From Lachnospiraceae bacterium (GTDB lineage Bacteria > Bacillota > Clostridia > Lachnospirales > Lachnospiraceae): a stretch of DNA of 64,000 bases. Under the pieces are notes generated by a model. It did not search any database and was not told the origin of the DNA. It saw only the letters and a program-made list of their open reading frames with translations. This document shows, in pieces, positions 56,971-64,000 of the stretch. The stretch covers positions 124,001-188,000 of the forward strand of contig JAMPFQ010000005.1 of NCBI GenBank assembly GCA_023664345.1, written 5' to 3'. Every line of letters starts with the position of its first letter. Position 1 is the first letter of the stretch. The translations under genes and the position numbers were made by a program.

Positions 56971-57066
56971 GGGGGATTCTTGTAACGGAAATGTTTCAGT
57001 ATCTTTTCTGCGGATTTTTTCCAGCAGAAGTATGTACAGGAATCTCCTTATCCGCAGAAATCCCCC
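56971..57066. repeat. nested inverted repeat of about 96 bases
   Basis: GGGGGATT (56971-56978) pairs with AATCCCCC (57059-57066). Inside, CTGCGGAT (57008-57015) pairs with ATCCGCAG (57050-57057). The GC-rich arms stand out in AT-rich DNA. It may be a folded RNA, possibly linked to the toxin-like gene downstream, or a MITE remnant. Confidence 0.5.
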
Positions 57067-57252
57067 AATTTTTGCCAAAGACAGCATACCGTTTCCTGAA
57101 CATTCAGATCAATGGGATTTGTTTCACAGCGCCTAAAGTATATAAAAATCCCCATCAGATATCAACAATCTTTTACAAAATAAAAATATGCCACAAATAT
57201 ATATTGAAATATTTAATGTAAGGTTGTAAAATATAATTGTTGTACCGAAGGT

Positions 57253-57294
57253 ATGACGGAGCACCACCCCCTGGAAAGGGGGTGGCCGTCATGA
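57253..57294 (+). CDS. 13-codon leader ORF overlapping the toxin-like ORF
   Basis: ATG 57253 runs 13 codons through the hairpin and stops at TGA 57292-57294, overlapping the next ATG as ATGA. Translating ribosomes would open the hairpin and re-start at the toxin ORF, as in leader-controlled type I toxins. It has no strong ribosome-binding site of its own. Inference from layout. Confidence 0.4.
   Translation: MTEHHPLERGWPS
57264..57285 (+). promoter_or_regulatory. hairpin hiding the Shine-Dalgarno of the toxin-like ORF
   Basis: CCACCCCCT (57264-57272), GGAA tetraloop (57273-57276), AGGGGGTGG (57277-57285): a perfect 9-bp stem capped by a GNRA loop. The AAGGGGG ribosome-binding site, 8 bases before ATG 57291, lies in the 3' arm and would be blocked when folded. 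Confidence 0.75.
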
Positions 57295-57386
57295 CAGAGT
57301 TCATAGTAGCTTTGCTAGGTGCTATCATGGGTAATATAATTTCGCATTATATTATCAAGTGGTTAGATAGCTTAAAAAACAACTAA
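57291..57386 (+). CDS. 31-residue type I toxin-like membrane peptide
   Basis: The peptide has one hydrophobic helix (IVALLGAIMGNIISHYIIKWL core, shown as residues 5-25) and a short polar, lysine-containing tail. This is the layout of Firmicutes type I toxins and holin-like toxins. The gene is a compact unit: TATAAT at 57232-57237, leader ORF, hairpin-blocked ribosome-binding site, the ORF and a terminator right after. No antisense RNA promoter could be fixed. Such peptides disrupt the membrane when made in excess. The assignment is from architecture and peptide character. Confidence 0.6.
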   Translation: MTEFIVALLGAIMGNIISHYIIKWLDSLKNN

Positions 57387-57393
57387 CCAAATG

Positions 57394-57420
57394 AGGCCAC
57401 ATTTTGTATGTGGCCTTGTT
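57394..57420 (+). terminator. terminator of the toxin-like gene
   Basis: AGGCCACAT (57394-57402), loop TTTGT, ATGTGGCCT (57408-57416), then TGTTT. Confidence 0.8.
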
Positions 57421-57459
57421 TAGGTGCGTATGGCGGCGCATTCTATACACTCTGACACA

Positions 57460-57957
57460 TTATCTGGAATCAGAAATCGCTGATTCATATTCAGGTTGAT
57501 GAAAGCCATCATAATCCTTGATCTTTTTGCATAATGACCAGCATTCTTCAAAATATGCCAACATGATGTTCACAATCTTGTCATCGAAAACAGAGCAGTA
57601 ATTATCTTTGTATTCGTAGCTTGCAAATATGACTTCTGCACTGTCGATGATAAGGAAATTCAGTTTGGGGAATCTTGGAATCTGCCCATTAGATTCATAA
57701 AAACCACACCAATAAGAATCATATTGCATTAAGTTATTCATTTTATTAATACGTTCTTTCCGTTTGTAAAATGTAAATATATCTTTATAAAAAATACCCT
57801 CCACTAATTTTGATTCAATCGTTTGGAGCAGATCTTGTTGAAAGCACATATATGCCATGTGGTTAGGGCGGCTGGAATTTGGATTGAAATCTTTCCAGGA
57901 TAAATGATATATGGATTTTTTCGCGCTCGCGATCCGCTCGACGATATATGAGTCCAT
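57460..57957 (-). CDS. uncharacterised protein, possibly a 3' fragment
   Basis: 165 residues. It starts MDSYIVERIASAKKSIYHLSW, a pattern reminiscent of the first strand and helix of PLD-like or DUF5919-type domains, followed by a beta-rich body (LNFLIIDSAEVIFASYEYKDNY) and helical C-terminus. No catalytic HxK is visible. ATG 57957 has no ribosome-binding site, and a second reading frame continues upstream to 58102, suggesting that the true N-terminus was split off by a frameshift. AT-rich. Confidence 0.45.
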   Translation of the reverse strand: MDSYIVERIASAKKSIYHLSWKDFNPNSSRPNHMAYMCFQQDLLQTIESKLVEGIFYKDIFTFYKRKERINKMNNLMQYDSYWCGFYESNGQIPRFPKLNFLIIDSAEVIFASYEYKDNYCSVFDDKIVNIMLAYFEECWSLCKKIKDYDGFHQPEYESAISDSR

Positions 57958-58102
57958 TGCATCGCTGCTGCCTAAGATTCATAAAAAGTGCATGATTATA
58001 TTCAATCTTTAAATAAAGCAAATATGTTTTTGTGATAATAGACACAGACCGCGCGGAATAGAACTTTTGGATCCAGTAGTGCATAAAAAAGTCAAACTTC
58101 AT
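57863..58102 (-). pseudogene. probable N-terminal fragment of the neighbouring minus-strand gene
   Basis: The reading frame from ATG 58102 gives a plausible start MKFDFFMHYWIQKFYSARS and reaches NHALFMNLRQQ at about 57965. Beyond that it turns into an arginine-rich shadow of the gene at 57460-57957, which is in another frame. A single indel near 57960-57970 would join the two. The evidence is indirect. Confidence 0.35.
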
Positions 58103-58111
58103 ATTTCCGTA

Positions 58112-58139
58112 TTGACTTTTACCGTTTATCGGTTATAAT
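58112..58139 (+). promoter_or_regulatory. promoter upstream of the Rpn-family gene
   Basis: TTGACT (58112-58117), 16-base spacer, TATAAT (58134-58139). The leader to ATG 58330 would be about 185 bases and includes a TGGTAT-CC-ATACCA palindrome (58176-58189). Confidence 0.55.
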
Positions 58140-58329
58140 ATAATCAAAGCATATTTTTCACATTAGGCATGGCCTTGGTATCCATACCATGTGCTGCATG
58201 TTTGTCGGTTATCGTTAGTGTTTATTCTGTTCATGAAAATTCATGCTTTTAACCCCACTATAACAAGAGCAGGAGTTTTTATCAGGCAGGGTAAATGCCA
58301 TGGCTCCTGCATATACGCAAGGAGGAAAA

Positions 58330-59346
58330 ATGATGAAAGGCAACAGGGAGTACAAGAGTGATGTTTTCAGCATGCTGATGGAGGACAGGGAAAGGGCTCT
58401 GCAGCTTTACAATGCGGTGAACCGTTCGGATTACAGGAATCCGGAAGCGGTGGAGATGCACAACCTCGACAAGGGGATCTCGCTGACGGTAAGGAATGAT
58501 GCGGCGTTTGTCCTTGATATGAGCCTGAGTATCTATGAGCACCAGTCCACGGTATGTCCGAACATGCCGATAAGGAGTTTGGTCTACTTTTCCGTGATGT
58601 TGAAGAAGTATGTCAATGATCGCAACATTTATGGAAGGTCGCTGGTGACGATACCGACGCCGCGGTTTGCGGTATTTTACAATGGGGATGAGGAGCAGCC
58701 GGAGCAATATGACCTGAAATTGTCCGATGCATTCCAGAAACCGATGGAGAAGCCGGAAATCGAACTGGTATGCAGAGTGTATAACATCAACAGTGGGAAG
58801 AACCGGGAACTGCTGGATGGCTGTCCTTGGTTAAGGGAATACATGACCTTTGTGGAACTGGTCAGAAAATTTTATGCGGACAACGGCCATGAAGACCTGA
58901 AAGACGCGATCGAGAGGGCGATAGACCGCTGTATAGAGGAAAATGTATTAAGGAACTTCCTGGCGGCACATCGATGGGAGGTAGTGAAAGCAATGACATT
59001 GGATTACACATTTGACAGGCAGCTCATGCTGGAGCGTCAGGAAGCCAGGGTGGAAGGACGCGAAGAGGGACGTGCGGAGGGACGTGAAGAGGGACGTGCG
59101 GAGGGACGTGAAGAGGGACGTGCGGAGGGACGCGAAGAAGGACGTGCGGAAGGTTTTGTGGAAGGCGAAGAAAAAAGCCTTATTCGTCTTGTATGTAAAA
59201 AGATGAAAAAAGGGATAGCTCCGGAAATGATCGCGGAGATATTGGAGGAAGACCTGGAAGAGATTGTGCGTATCTGTAGTGCGGCAGAGAGATTTTCGCC
59301 AGATTATGACTGTGGCAGTATTTATGAAGAATTAAAACTCCGATGA
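58330..59346 (+). CDS. Rpn-family (PD-(D/E)XK) recombination-promoting nuclease-like protein
   Basis: 338 residues. The N-terminal nuclease-like core has KSDVFSMLMEDRERALQLYNAV, AAFVLDMSLSIYEHQST (D and ExQ active-site region), RFAVFYNG and ELVCRVYNIN. The family is often labelled transposase, though relatives act as nucleases that raise recombination. The tail has four 8-residue GREEGRAE repeats (about 243-274) expected to form a charged coiled coil, then a helical end. AGGAGG precedes ATG 58330; ATG 58333 is equally possible. A typical multi-copy gene in Lachnospiraceae. Confidence 0.85.
   Translation: MMKGNREYKSDVFSMLMEDRERALQLYNAVNRSDYRNPEAVEMHNLDKGISLTVRNDAAFVLDMSLSIYEHQSTVCPNMPIRSLVYFSVMLKKYVNDRNIYGRSLVTIPTPRFAVFYNGDEEQPEQYDLKLSDAFQKPMEKPEIELVCRVYNINSGKNRELLDGCPWLREYMTFVELVRKFYADNGHEDLKDAIERAIDRCIEENVLRNFLAAHRWEVVKAMTLDYTFDRQLMLERQEARVEGREEGRAEGREEGRAEGREEGRAEGREEGRAEGFVEGEEKSLIRLVCKKMKKGIAPEMIAEILEEDLEEIVRICSAAERFSPDYDCGSIYEELKLR
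59056..59151 (+). repeat. four 24-bp tandem repeats in the Rpn gene
   Basis: Units start at 59056, 59080, 59104 and 59128 with GGACG(C/T)GAAGA(G/A)GGACGTG and encode GREEGRAE. They keep the frame whatever the copy number. Confidence 0.92.
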
Positions 59347-59858
59347 TTTACATGATGGATCTCTGGAACAAGATAACAAACAATTTTCTCCGCTTTTTTC
59401 CGGCAGCGTTTCTGATATCGCTGGCGTTGACTTTGCTGTATAGGAAAATATTGCGGAAAGACAGGTGGGTGCCATTTTTCTTCTTCTGCATCTACCTGGT
59501 GCTGCTTATCGGCGAGACGGTCTGGGGACGTCTGGGACAAAATATTGTGACGAAAGACTTCATCGGTATAGGTTCCTTATTTGAAGATCCCTGGTATATG
59601 GCGGCTGCGGTGGAAAATGTTATCATGTTTCTTCCGTTTGGGTTCCTGAGTGTCAGCGCATTCCCGGCTGAAAAGGCGTGGAAACGCCACCTGGCCGGGG
59701 CGGCGTTTATGAGTGGCTGTATTGAACTGGCCCAGTATGCATTACATATCGGAGAAGCGCAGGTGGTCGATATATCAGCCAACGTACTGGGAGCCGTGCT
59801 GGGTATTCTTTTGCAGAATATTTTCACGATGATGGCCAAAAAGCCGGCACGCTTTTAG
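59343..59858 (+). CDS. VanZ-like membrane protein
   Basis: 171 residues with four to five helices. VanZ-family marks are ENVIMFLPFGFL and SGCIELAQY with a later VDISANVLGAVLG. VanZ relatives have been linked to glycopeptide or lipid modification, but most members have no known role. The start ATG overlaps the Rpn stop (ATGA) and lacks a strong ribosome-binding site, so it is probably translationally coupled; ATG 59355 is an alternative. It converges on the helicase gene 13 bases away. Confidence 0.85.
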   Translation: MIYMMDLWNKITNNFLRFFPAAFLISLALTLLYRKILRKDRWVPFFFFCIYLVLLIGETVWGRLGQNIVTKDFIGIGSLFEDPWYMAAAVENVIMFLPFGFLSVSAFPAEKAWKRHLAGAAFMSGCIELAQYALHIGEAQVVDISANVLGAVLGILLQNIFTMMAKKPARF

Positions 59859-59871
59859 GTTATGATCCTGA

Positions 59872-62800
59872 TCAAAGTTCTCCTTTCAGGAACTGGCAGG
59901 CGTTCATCAGCATATCAGGATTTTTCCCCGCGATAAAATAGTAGTCCATCTGAACCTCCTTTTCTGTGTGCAGGTAAGTGCCATATGTCGGCAGGTCACA
60001 GTAGATCACAGGGGCATCAGAGGCGACCAGGATGCCATAACCCTGATTGGAGAACAGGAAGGGCAGTTCGTCCATGGCGGAGATATATCGTGCTGTTCTC
60101 CGTAGGGAGAGCGCTTTAGTGCCGCTGGGGCCAATGGCGAAAAGCTGTTCTTTTCTGGCGGGTTCCAAAAAGAGCCATGACTGCAATCCTCCGCCGGGAA
60201 TAGGTTCCTGCTGCCTGCATTCCCTGTTGCGTTCCGCCAGCAAAAGCTTTTTGTTATGGTCAAGATAGCGGATCGCACCTGTCGATTTGTCTGCCTGAAG
60301 AATCAGTTCATCTGTAGAGAATGTGACCGTCTGCCCGGATTCTTTATAAAGCCAGAATTTCTCCAGTCTGTCCACTTTGATCTGTGGATGTATACCGTCT
60401 AAAAGTTTCCCGCCTTTTGCAAAAGTTATCCGAACAATGCCGCTGCCCACAGGTGAAAGCCGCAGGATGCCGTAGCGGCTCTGTAAATACAGACCGTCAG
60501 GCTGTTTCATCACCCAGCGCACGGCCAGATCGATCCTGGCATGCCCCGCGGGACGAAGCTTCTCGGTGGGAGGAAAGTCCCCGAAATCCGGATATCCGTT
60601 TTGGGAGGATATAGCGGTCACGTTCGTGGCAGGAAAGTGCGATTCGGGGCTTTGACGGGTGCAGGCGTCTGTCGGATCACTTTGACCAGCATGGTCACTA
60701 TCTTTGCTTGGGGCATTTTGGACTTGTTGACTGGTTGAGACATTTTGACCAAAACGGTCATTTTCCGCCGCTTTATTCTCGCGAGGCTTGTATCGGGGTT
60801 GTTGGCGCTGACGGTTGTTTCTATACACCTGCATGACGGACGCTGCAGGAGATGCAGCCCTCATTTCAGGTATGTTTTCTGGACTTGCGGCGACCGGACG
60901 GGGCTTTCTTGTGTTGTATGCATTTCCGTGAGTTCTCCCGGAAGCGTCTTTATTGCCTGGATTCCCTGACGGAACATTCCTCTGTATAAAGTTTTCTGAA
61001 ACTGCTTTTTCCTGCGGAACCGCTTCGCCCGGCATCATTTCCGCCGCTTCCGGCACAGGATCCGCGATCAGCCTGGTGAGGTTTCCGGTATGCAGCACGC
61101 AGAGTTCGTGCAACGCTCTGGTGGCTGCTACATACAGAAGCTTTGCGTGTCCGTCATCCACAGGATATTCTTCCCTGGTGGGATTTAAAATCAGCACGGC
61201 GTCAAATTCCAGGCCTTTCGTATATTCCACCGGAAGCACTATGATGCCGTTGCCAAATTCGGCCTTTTCCGGGTCTGTCTCCATGATCTCGATCCGTTTC
61301 CCAAGTTCCCCGGCAGCCTTATCGGCGCTTTCCCGATCCCTGCATATGACGGCAATGGTAGGCAGGTCTTTTTCCTGCCATTCATGGCACTTTTGGACGA
61401 CTGCCTGCCACAGTGCATCGCCGTCCGGAACGGACTGCACCGTTACGGGCTCTCCATGGCGGATGATGGGTTCTACAGGATAGCGCACCGATTGCCCATG
61501 GTGCAGGATATCTGTGGCGAAATGGGAAATTTCTACCGTATTGCGATAGCTTTTTTTCAAAACGCCGAAGCTGGACATGGGATCGTTGTCCAGAAGAAGC
61601 TTTCTTAAGTCCTCCCAGTCGTTCAGCCCGAAACCAAAGCGGATATTCTGGGACACATCCCCCATGATGGTGTAAGTACAGTCCTTGATGCAGAAGTGCA
61701 GGCAGTGGTATACCATCATTCCGAAATCCTGTGCCTCGTCGATCACAATGTGGTGCGCCTCGCTGATGACATCTGTCTCCTTGGTGCGCTTATAAATATA
61801 AGCCAGCGCCGCCAGATCGTAGATGTCAAACTCATTGCCGGGAAGCGTGATCGGCATATCCGCGTCGGGGCTGCAGCCGGGCGCTTTCGTCTGTAGGTGA
61901 TCGATCGTTTCGCTGTTGGCAGGCAGGGACGCCTGCTCTTTGAGGAAATCGTCATACAGCCTGTAGGTGGACCGTTTCCAGTTCCTGCCGCCATAACGGT
62001 TCCGATAAGCTTTCAGGATGGCTTTCCGCTCGGCCTCCGTGTATTTGATGCCTTTTCCCAGAAATTCATCTTTCACCCTGGTCAGCAGCCGCTCGTTCAG
62101 CATGTTGATCTTGCTCTGGATGGAAACATGGGGATTCTGCCGGATATACCGTTCCACAGCCTGTCCGTCCATCAAAAGTATCAGCGCACTCTCGTCAGGC
62201 GTTTCCCCGCCGCTCCTGTCATAGATCCCGGATCGGCCGTTCTCGATCCCCTCGACGAACTGTCTGGGGTTTAGATAGATGGATTTTGTGGAGATCATAT
62301 CCCGTTCCAGCCTGTCACAAAACCGCTCCAACGCGTGAAACCAGCCGTCCGTTCCCTTGATGTTTCCGCTGTCCGCGTTCTGCGCTTTTTTGCGGATGTG
62401 GTATTTTTTCCCATCCCAGTCCTCGTAAAGCAGCCTGACGAAAAGCTGTTCCATGGTCATCTGGTGTACGCCGCGGACGTCCAGGCTGGGCAGGACGCCG
62501 GTGATGTAATTTAACAGGATACGGTTGCTGCCCACAATATAAAAGTCCCTGGGCTGGAAGCGTTCCGCGTAATTATACAGGATAAAGGAGATCCGGTGCA
62601 TGGCCACGGTGGTCTTCCCGGAACCCGCCACTCCCTGTACGATCATATTGTGGTAAGGGGACTTGCGGATGATGTCATTCTGTTCTTTCTGGATGGTAGC
62701 GACGATCTCGCCCAGCACGGCCTGCTTGTTCTTTGCCAGATATTTGGTGAGCAGGTCGTCATTGGAGATCACCTCGCTGTCAAAATAATCCAGAAGTTTT

Positions 62801-63297
62801 CCCTGTTCGATCTCGTAAGTGCGTTTTAACCGCAGGTCTATCCACAGGGGAGCGCCGCCGGGGGAGGGGTAACTGCATCTTCCCAGGCCGTTTTCGTAGT
62901 AGGCGTTGGCCACGGGGGCACGCCAGTCGATCACTTCCTGATGGGTGGAGTCCCGGGAGATGCCGCCTTTGCCGATATAAAGGGATTCCTCTTTGCCCAG
63001 GGCCTCGTCATGGAAGCAGATGCGCCCGAAATAAGGCTTGTTCGCAGCCCTTTCGTTCCGCTCCAGGGCGCGCTTCATGTGGTCGTGCAGGGTGATGGTG
63101 TTGTTCAGGATCACATACACCTCGGCGTCATTATCGTGGTAATGTTCCAGCATCTCGTCAATATTTTCTTTCATTTCCCGAACCTGACGACCATAGCTAT
63201 CCATGTTCGCATGGATCACATCGAGTGTCTCTTTCAGGTGCTTCTCCTCGTCTTCGCGGGAGGTTCCCTGAACGTGCTTTTGCTCTTCAAGTTTCAT
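59872..63297 (-). CDS. HelD-type UvrD-like helicase fused to a GH31 N-terminal-like domain
   Basis: 1141 residues. A coiled N-terminal arm (about 1-85) as in HelD is followed by a superfamily 1 helicase core: Walker A GVAGSGKTT (222-230), Walker B VIDEAQDF (about 513-520), TKGLEFDAV and YVAATRALHEL (about 722-735). HelD frees stalled RNA polymerase from DNA. After a polar linker of about 180 residues (about 740-920) comes a beta-sandwich-like region (about 925-1141). Its pattern (VRITFAKGG, FSTDELILQADKSTGAI, FAIGPSGTKALSLRR, LPFLFSNQGYGI, YYFIAGKNPDMLM) is that of the N-terminal domain of GH31 alpha-glucosidases; the protein ends before the catalytic barrel. AAAGGAG precedes ATG 63297. Confidence 0.85.
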   Translation of the reverse strand: MKLEEQKHVQGTSREDEEKHLKETLDVIHANMDSYGRQVREMKENIDEMLEHYHDNDAEVYVILNNTITLHDHMKRALERNERAANKPYFGRICFHDEALGKEESLYIGKGGISRDSTHQEVIDWRAPVANAYYENGLGRCSYPSPGGAPLWIDLRLKRTYEIEQGKLLDYFDSEVISNDDLLTKYLAKNKQAVLGEIVATIQKEQNDIIRKSPYHNMIVQGVAGSGKTTVAMHRISFILYNYAERFQPRDFYIVGSNRILLNYITGVLPSLDVRGVHQMTMEQLFVRLLYEDWDGKKYHIRKKAQNADSGNIKGTDGWFHALERFCDRLERDMISTKSIYLNPRQFVEGIENGRSGIYDRSGGETPDESALILLMDGQAVERYIRQNPHVSIQSKINMLNERLLTRVKDEFLGKGIKYTEAERKAILKAYRNRYGGRNWKRSTYRLYDDFLKEQASLPANSETIDHLQTKAPGCSPDADMPITLPGNEFDIYDLAALAYIYKRTKETDVISEAHHIVIDEAQDFGMMVYHCLHFCIKDCTYTIMGDVSQNIRFGFGLNDWEDLRKLLLDNDPMSSFGVLKKSYRNTVEISHFATDILHHGQSVRYPVEPIIRHGEPVTVQSVPDGDALWQAVVQKCHEWQEKDLPTIAVICRDRESADKAAGELGKRIEIMETDPEKAEFGNGIIVLPVEYTKGLEFDAVLILNPTREEYPVDDGHAKLLYVAATRALHELCVLHTGNLTRLIADPVPEAAEMMPGEAVPQEKAVSENFIQRNVPSGNPGNKDASGRTHGNAYNTRKPRPVAASPENIPEMRAASPAASVMQVYRNNRQRQQPRYKPRENKAAENDRFGQNVSTSQQVQNAPSKDSDHAGQSDPTDACTRQSPESHFPATNVTAISSQNGYPDFGDFPPTEKLRPAGHARIDLAVRWVMKQPDGLYLQSRYGILRLSPVGSGIVRITFAKGGKLLDGIHPQIKVDRLEKFWLYKESGQTVTFSTDELILQADKSTGAIRYLDHNKKLLLAERNRECRQQEPIPGGGLQSWLFLEPARKEQLFAIGPSGTKALSLRRTARYISAMDELPFLFSNQGYGILVASDAPVIYCDLPTYGTYLHTEKEVQMDYYFIAGKNPDMLMNACQFLKGEL

Positions 63298-63390
63298 TTG
63301 GTGCTCCTTTCTGTGGGTGATCGTTCAAAGCTAAGGGACGGAGGCGTGCCGTTCCCTTGGCGCCAGCTCACCGGACGCCACCGGTGCTGA

Positions 63391-63413
63391 ACTGTTACAA
63401 CTGTACTAACAGT
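63391..63413. promoter_or_regulatory. dyad with TACA-AC-TGTA core upstream of the helicase gene
   Basis: ACTGTTA (63391-63397) and TAACAGT (63407-63413) flank a TACAACTGTA core (63396-63405) that matches the TACAnnTGTA operator pattern of CopY/BlaI-type repressors. On the minus strand a weak TTGATA-17-TAACAG promoter overlaps it. The 324-base gap 63298-63624 also has CACCGG-ACGCCA-CCGGTG (about 63369-63386). Confidence 0.4.
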
Positions 63414-63560
63414 GTATCAAAAACAAAAAATAATACTAGACTTTTCTTTTCCCATATGTTATCATACATACTGAAGTTTGACCTGGATCACAGAACACCC
63501 CATCAGCTATTGCAGGCAGCCGGAGGAGCCGCCAGCGCAATGGCTTTTTTTGATTTTCTT

Positions 63561-63588
63561 TGTAACATTTTCCGTTCTCGACCGTTAT
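63561..63588 (+). promoter_or_regulatory. possible ECF-type autoregulated promoter
   Basis: TGTAAC (63561-63566), 16-base spacer, CGTTAT (63583-63588), similar to the TGAAAC/TGTAAC-N16-CGT promoters of ECF sigma factors. It lies 40 bases before the ECF sigma gene, fitting self-activation. Confidence 0.4.
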
Positions 63589-63624
63589 TGATACAGCAGC
63601 CGGATACAAGGGAGGTGAAAAGCA

Positions 63625-64000
63625 GTGCGCGATATGGATTTTGACAGCATTTACCGGAATTATTTCAGGGACGTCTATTTCTATATCTACGGCATCGCCC
63701 GCAGCGAGAGCCTGGCGGAGGAGATCACCCAGGAGACGTTTGTGAAAGCCCTGAAAGCGATCGACGGTTTTGACGGCGGGAAAGATATCAGGGCATGGCT
63801 TTTCACCATAGCCAGAAATACCTTTTACACCTGCTGCAGGCGGCGGAAGATTTACGCGGAACAGCCCCTGGACGAGAATACCGACGCGCCGGGGCCGTCC
63901 CTGGTGGATCGGATCGTTGATGAGGAGACCGCTTTTTGCATCCATCGGTTCCTGCATGAAATGAGAGAACCCTATAAAGAGGTCTTTACGCTGCGGGTAT
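63625..64000 (+). CDS. ECF-type RNA polymerase sigma factor (partial, runs off the window)
   Basis: 125 residues visible. Region 2 (about 5-75) has YFRDVYFYIYGIARSESLAEEITQETFVKAL-type sequence (key: EEITQETF) and AWLFTIARNTF; region 4 begins at about 110 with MREPYKEVFTLRV. The start is GTG 63625 with GGAGGTG about 7 bases before; ATG 63634 would be too far. The right end is cut by the window. Target genes and anti-sigma partner are expected downstream, outside the window. Confidence 0.88.
   Translation, partial: MRDMDFDSIYRNYFRDVYFYIYGIARSESLAEEITQETFVKALKAIDGFDGGKDIRAWLFTIARNTFYTCCRRRKIYAEQPLDENTDAPGPSLVDRIVDEETAFCIHRFLHEMREPYKEVFTLRV

Follow-up and report, generated by a model that had tools for sequence, protein, structure and literature searches.

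A HelD-family motor protein of Lachnospiraceae ends in a GH31 N-terminal domain without its barrel

HelD proteins and their described architectures

HelD clears stalled RNA polymerase and helps Bacillus subtilis tolerate rifampicin (PMC12802891). In B. subtilis HelD, the arm tip is D56/D57 (PMC7749167). Section 3.5 of a survey of the family gives HelD lengths of ~680–850 aa, ascribes the variation to the arms, and calls it “currently not clear” why some bacteria keep several HelD isoforms (PMC8655204). This class survey makes no mention of a fusion, of glycosidases or other glycoside terms, of a linker, of an additional domain, or of a C-terminal extension.

A probable trace of a further architecture was found in print, in the only paper retrieved that names both HelD and DUF4968. 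The methods of Newing et al. 2020 (PMC7749167) state that HelD-like sequences for alignment were taken from matches named “DUF4968 domain-containing protein.” In the passages of that paper that concern these proteins, neither a GH31 relationship nor a linker, a distribution, a lost loop, or a function is described. NCBI applies the DUF4968 name to several HelD–GH31N fusions and to some GH31 enzymes (among the matches listed, the best 120 of 549 and the best 120 of 738). By our reading, the HelD-like DUF4968 proteins of PMC7749167 probably have the same architecture as the fusion described here. Outside subscription papers, preprints, and supplements, we found no description of a HelD–GH31N fusion.

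The fusion has in common with class I HelD (B. subtilis, 6wvk, 6zca) the motor domains and a predicted acidic-tipped arm, and a helical insertion is predicted in it at the place of the clamp arm; class I HelD is without the disordered linker and the GH31 N-terminal domain that follow domain 2A in the fusion. HelD–GH31N fusions are ~1000–1265 aa long, versus the ~680–850 aa given in section 3.5 of PMC8655204. The actinobacterial HelD and HelR proteins (class II) belong to the same motor family, match more weakly in NCBIfam (123–139 bits), and are farther in structure than B. subtilis HelD (1.1e-25 versus 9e-36).

The fusion gene and a proposed role

The window, the whole stretch analyzed here, comprises 64,000 nucleotides of a Lachnospiraceae bacterium (GCA_023664345.1, contig JAMPFQ010000005.1). 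The fusion gene lies at 59872–63297 on the minus strand, begins with ATG, and runs for 1141 codons without an internal stop; it has a 100% match in its own genome, on contig C43. All parts of the 1141-aa product are thus read from the minus strand. Residues 1–745 (61063–63297) form the HelD motor, as judged by NCBIfam and PDB matches and the full-length AlphaFold model. Residues 746–903 (60589–61062) are a linker predicted to be disordered (pLDDT < 50 over 753–900). The tail, residues 904–1141, consists of a tail-specific lead-in at 904–927 (60517–60588; consensus FGDxPxTEKLRPxGHxKIDLAVR) and a GH31 N-terminal beta-sandwich at 928–1141 (59875–60516), the latter assigned by sequence and structure matches. 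Confidence in the full-length model is intermediate (mean pLDDT 73.9, pTM 0.52), and its best PDB matches are, in order, HelD chains, UvrD-type helicases, and GH31 N-domains.

An earlier note on this DNA had read the first ~740 residues as a HelD helicase and the tail as a GH31 N-domain that stops where a TIM barrel should begin. The searches and the end of the chain at the domain border agree with each of these points, whereas the linker, put at ~180 residues, has 158. The arrangement was also not one that the author of the note knew. We found no description of it, but HelD-like DUF4968 proteins had been mentioned in print in 2020 (PMC7749167).

The same genome encodes a canonical HelD (locus L154, 3928–6132, minus strand) that scores 427.1 bits, passes the NCBI cut-off of 419, and is only ~30% identical to the fusion motor. 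We lean slightly toward an explanation in which, taken as a whole, the fusion is a second, lineage-specific HelD isoform beside the canonical one and its tail is a docking or regulatory module. Judging from the parts preserved, the motor would act on RNA polymerase that has stalled: the acidic-tipped arm would enter its secondary channel, the clamp arm would pry the clamp open and let the nucleic acids leave, and ATP turnover would reset or release the motor. The GH31 sandwich, hanging at the C-terminus on a disordered tether of roughly 70–260 residues, would bind a protein surface, either on RNA polymerase itself or on a partner, and so recruit, hold, or switch the motor. The canonical HelD in the same cell would do the housekeeping, which would amount to a division of labor.

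More tentatively, we speculate that the GH31 sandwich was exapted into transcription, such that it now senses a protein partner or a newly acquired ligand as a signal and gates where or when this HelD isoform strips stalled RNA polymerase. If so, Lachnospiraceae possess a conditional polymerase-recycling pathway beside housekeeping HelD. With an added domain that sets it apart, apparently of single origin and clearly constrained, this isoform provides a handle on the question of why several HelD isoforms are kept.

The tail: fold, losses, and gains

The tail has the GH31 N-terminal, galactose-mutarotase-like sandwich fold along its length. It has 81 matches at E <= 0.001, 50 of them listed, and it shares this fold with the N-terminal domains of the alpha-glycosidases FjDex31A (6jr6/6jr8), BoGH31A (5jou), MeXyl31 (5zn6), and YicI (1xsi). 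In these enzymes, the N-domain is followed by a TIM barrel and C-terminal domains; the fusion has none of them. Its tail ends in a helix (1127–1137) that would otherwise run on into the TIM barrel, and no PF01055 match is present anywhere in the protein. The fusion is therefore an example of a GH31 N-domain living without its barrel. Around the lead-in, the blocks 902–911, 912–921, and 922–931 have pLDDT values of 94, 76, and 95.

We compared 82 tails with 127 GH31 N-domains, 117 of the latter coming from one search and mostly from one subfamily. Mean pairwise identity is 0.49 among the tails and 0.50 among the GH31 N-domains; the two sets are equally diverse, so conservation is comparable between them. 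The GLGQ-type motif G[LFM]G[QEH] is found in none of the 82 tails and in all 127 GH31 N-domains. The QxN-type motif [QH]xN occurs in 3 of the 82 tails and again in 127/127 GH31 N-domains, and the tail of the window's own fusion has neither. The N-loop of GH31 enzymes forms part of the active-site pocket (PMC4742823), and by alignment we place both motifs at the border of, or within, that loop. Residues 1052–1079 of the fusion (60061–60144, minus strand) are the remodeled region that corresponds to the GLGQ-type motif and N-loop of the enzymes. Between residues 1034 and 1039, moreover, a loop of ~30 residues present in the compared enzymes is deleted.

Many fold positions are common to tails and GH31 enzymes: P949, R956, W982, L1019, E1022, E1050, L1065, Y1071, P1079, S1083, G1086, Y1087, G1088, G1106, D1118, F1121, and G1124. 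Other residues are near-invariant in the tails and new to them: F905, G906, P909, G918, H919, D923, W928, R941, Y942, L945, F959, K1004, G1007, R1028, K1048, A1069, S1073, A1092, C1100, and Y1105. Positions 905–919 are a gap in 98–100% of the 127 GH31 N-domains, and the lead-in residues F905, G906, G918, and D923 are present in 53/53 fusions. By these alignments, the signature bordering the sugar pocket in the parent enzymes is gone from the tail, which has gained near-invariant residues of its own.

The earlier note offered two readings of the tail, namely that it binds a sugar or that it provides a new interaction surface. The loss of the GH31 signature together with the new near-invariant residues favors the second over the first. 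The tail could nonetheless be a ligand sensor for a sugar, a nucleotide-sugar, or a sugar-bearing small molecule that gates the HelD motor, and thereby make RNA polymerase recycling responsive to carbon status or a glycosylated inhibitor. We regard such sensing as unlikely. The fold itself would suit it, the tail is under purifying selection, and in B. subtilis HelD is linked to tolerance of rifampicin (PMC12802891). GH31 barrels, moreover, are somewhat commoner in genomes with the tail (14 of 16 within the family sample versus 125/200 for that sample as a whole), so a link to carbohydrate metabolism is possible. Against this, the GLGQ-type signature is absent from 82/82 tails and the N-loop signature from 79/82, the remainder of the sugar pocket was in the barrel that the fusion lacks, and no sugar gene family stands beside the fusion in more than 15 of 76 loci. 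The window's own genome, furthermore, retains the tail without any GH31 enzyme. Its sole PF01055 match is a GH36 melibiase, and the barrel without an N-domain that the earlier note had proposed to look for is not present there. A different part of the sandwich may have acquired a ligand site of its own.

Origin and constraint

A tree built from 100 HelD cores places every one of the 77 tailed rows in a single clade (support 98). The only two rows in that clade scored as having no tail, loci L058 and L167, carry it in a second frame. The nearest tail-less relatives (L136, L137, and L138) are ~53–55% identical in the motor. We note that L138 (1990–4527, minus strand) encodes an 846-aa HelD without a tail match that is sister to the tailed clade, and that its neighbors L136 and L137 are 682–696 aa. 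A tree of the domain sets the 82 tails apart from 45 GH31 N-domains (support 99), with one row labeled as a tail being the GH31 of L153. That sequence was rejected as a tail, since it is a GH31 enzyme, and was removed from the counts. Both trees were built by a quick method, and their support values are SH-aLRT alone. With the tailed rows in one HelD clade and the tails separate from GH31 N-domains, the clustering fits a single capture of a GH31 N-domain. GH31 is far more widespread than the fusion tail, which suggests that the direction of capture was from GH31 to HelD.

We estimated dN/dS in 15 pairs, hand-picked for closeness and some of them sharing a sequence. Values are 0.04–0.15 for the motor and 0.07–0.29 for the tail, indicating that the tail is kept nearly as firmly as the motor. 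The linker gives 0.18–0.82 (in the 13/15 pairs where it is computable), and in the pair L051/L052 linker and tail are about equal. In the full-length AlphaFold model, residues 753–900 all have pLDDT < 50, mostly 24–32. Across 76 loci, linker length ranges from 68 to 257 with a median of 118.5, and net charge is positive in 72/76; the linker in the window carries +1.

It is improbable, in our estimation, that the tail serves only as a passive cap, folded but without a specific partner, or as an aid to solubility, and is kept by drift. Consistent with such a cap, the linker is nearly free of constraint, one congener (G241) is without the tail, and in some copies a second frame encodes it. However, tail dN/dS is near that of the motor in the 15 pairs, several of the tail-specific near-invariant residues lie outside the GH31 core, and the tail is kept in 76 loci.

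The HelD motor

The best NCBIfam model for the fusion is HelD_BACSU, at 322.7 bits. This score is under the equivalog cut-off of 419, as is that of the Acetatifactor muris homolog (319.7 bits); thus, by this measure, the fusion is a HelD-family paralog rather than NCBI's HelD equivalog. The best PDB sequence match of the motor is B. subtilis HelD from its complex with RNA polymerase (E 1.2e-63), and the best structure match of the full-length model is B. subtilis HelD 6wvk (E 9e-36, with a TM of only 0.32/0.45).

Helicase domains 1A and 2A are present. Helicase motif residues are kept, position by position in the alignment, in 49–53 of 53 fusions. These are Walker A (G222–T230), DEAQD (520–524), GDxSQ (546–550), YR (584–585), TKGLEFD (693–699), and VAATRA (723–728), segments that correspond to SF1 helicase motifs I to VI and in which each position is kept in 50–53 of 53. 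On paper, motifs I to VI appear intact. The AlphaFold model predicts an N-terminal two-helix secondary-channel arm (helices 14–51 and 58–86) whose tip, HYHDND, is acidic, with D55 in 51/53 and E59 in 53/53 fusions. A helical insertion is predicted at ~290–490, where the clamp arm would lie, in a model whose whole-chain TM to 6wvk is 0.32/0.45.

Could the motor have left the HelD role and become an SF1 motor on another target, for example DNA repair intermediates? The 322.7-bit score, under the cut-off that the genome's other HelD passes with 427.1, is what such a departure might leave behind. We give it little chance, as HelD models are by far the best NCBIfam matches, the top PDB matches in both sequence and structure are HelD complexed with RNA polymerase, and the predicted acidic-tipped arm and the helicase motifs are kept.

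Recurrence and distribution

The fusion occurs in common gut bacteria, cultured strains among them. Scanning the GTDB contigs turned up 69 loci. Most of them are titled Lachnospiraceae, Acetatifactor, or Eisenbergiella, and some metagenome-assembled genomes, few in number, bear the names Clostridium sp., Acetivibrio sp., Blautia sp., or Bacillota. These loci, after ORF calling, together with loci from whole-genome searches, yield 78 in which HelD and tail share one frame of > 950 aa, or 76 once two duplicates are removed. Included are A. muris DSM 23669, Eisenbergiella tayi DSM 26961, and E. porci, as well as a genome in one contig (G205). In the protein database, the best 120 of 549 matches all have helicase domains in the Pfam column. 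The earlier note had suggested a survey of Lachnospiraceae HelD proteins for the same tail, which turns up in dozens of independent assemblies. An assembly or annotation artifact joining two genes, the danger that the note itself had named, might be suspected from the low-complexity linker and from the frames split there in L058 and L167, but it is refuted by recurrence in 76 non-duplicate one-frame loci, cultured Acetatifactor and Eisenbergiella, and the one-contig genome.

Among 200 genomes of the family, 69 have a HelD match at E <= 1e-10 and 36 match the tail query. One-frame fusions, judged by frame length, account for 13 of the 200, and in three more the fusion seems to be interrupted, either at a contig end (G006, G048) or by a frame (G149). 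The remaining tail matches are mostly frames of ~660–860 aa, those scanned with Pfam being GH31 enzymes, and one match, 122 aa long, is what remains of a GH31 N-domain next to GH31 barrel sequence. Of 61 genomes of the genus, counting the window's own, 30 encode HelD and tail together in a single frame of 1000 aa or more, with the tail match crossing a stop codon in 3 of the 30; in G235, the HelD and tail parts sit at contig ends. In a sample of the class (391 genomes, some of the family included), only 5 besides the own genome match, in frames of 798–818 aa, the size of GH31 enzymes.

Exceptions to the one-frame arrangement were also seen. In the congener G241, the frame of a tailed-type HelD (locus L183, 64% identical) is 817 aa long, stops within the linker, and has no tail match, an apparent secondary loss. 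In L167 (6860–7240) and L058 (2380–3000), HelD and tail occupy different overlapping frames, the break falling within the linker; either a sequencing error or a true split gene would account for this. Given G241 and the few copies that encode the tail apart from HelD, some strains may be able to do without it. Short relatives of the tail number 91 proteins, of which 9 were read. P0326 is a fragment of a GH31 enzyme that includes the beginning of its barrel, P0274 retains the end of a HelD motor, and the other seven seem to comprise the tail, either by itself or preceded by linker. Because of P0326, P0274, and the linker-bearing rows among these 9 of 91, we do not claim a free-standing tail family.

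Neighborhood

A two-promoter alarm has been described for B. subtilis helD. A weak promoter scan of 63100–63800 gave two consensus-like sites on the plus strand and none on the fusion's own strand, and such an alarm is therefore not supported for the fusion gene. An Rfam search of 57000–64000 (E <= 0.5) returned just one below-threshold microRNA chance match. Clustering of neighboring genes found no family in more than 15/76 loci, using crude ORF calls and, in many loci, at most ~2.6 kb upstream and 6 kb downstream.

Upstream of the fusion and divergent from it by 327 bp is an ECF-like sigma-70 region 2 protein (63625–63999, plus strand) that is cut by the window end; the gene is not conserved as a neighbor in the relatives examined. 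Downstream and convergent with the fusion is a VanZ-like membrane protein (59343–59858, plus strand). Beside it, a 348-aa protein with GREEGRAEG repeats (58300–59346, plus strand) has no Pfam match and may resemble Rpn/PD-(D/E)XK transposase-type proteins.
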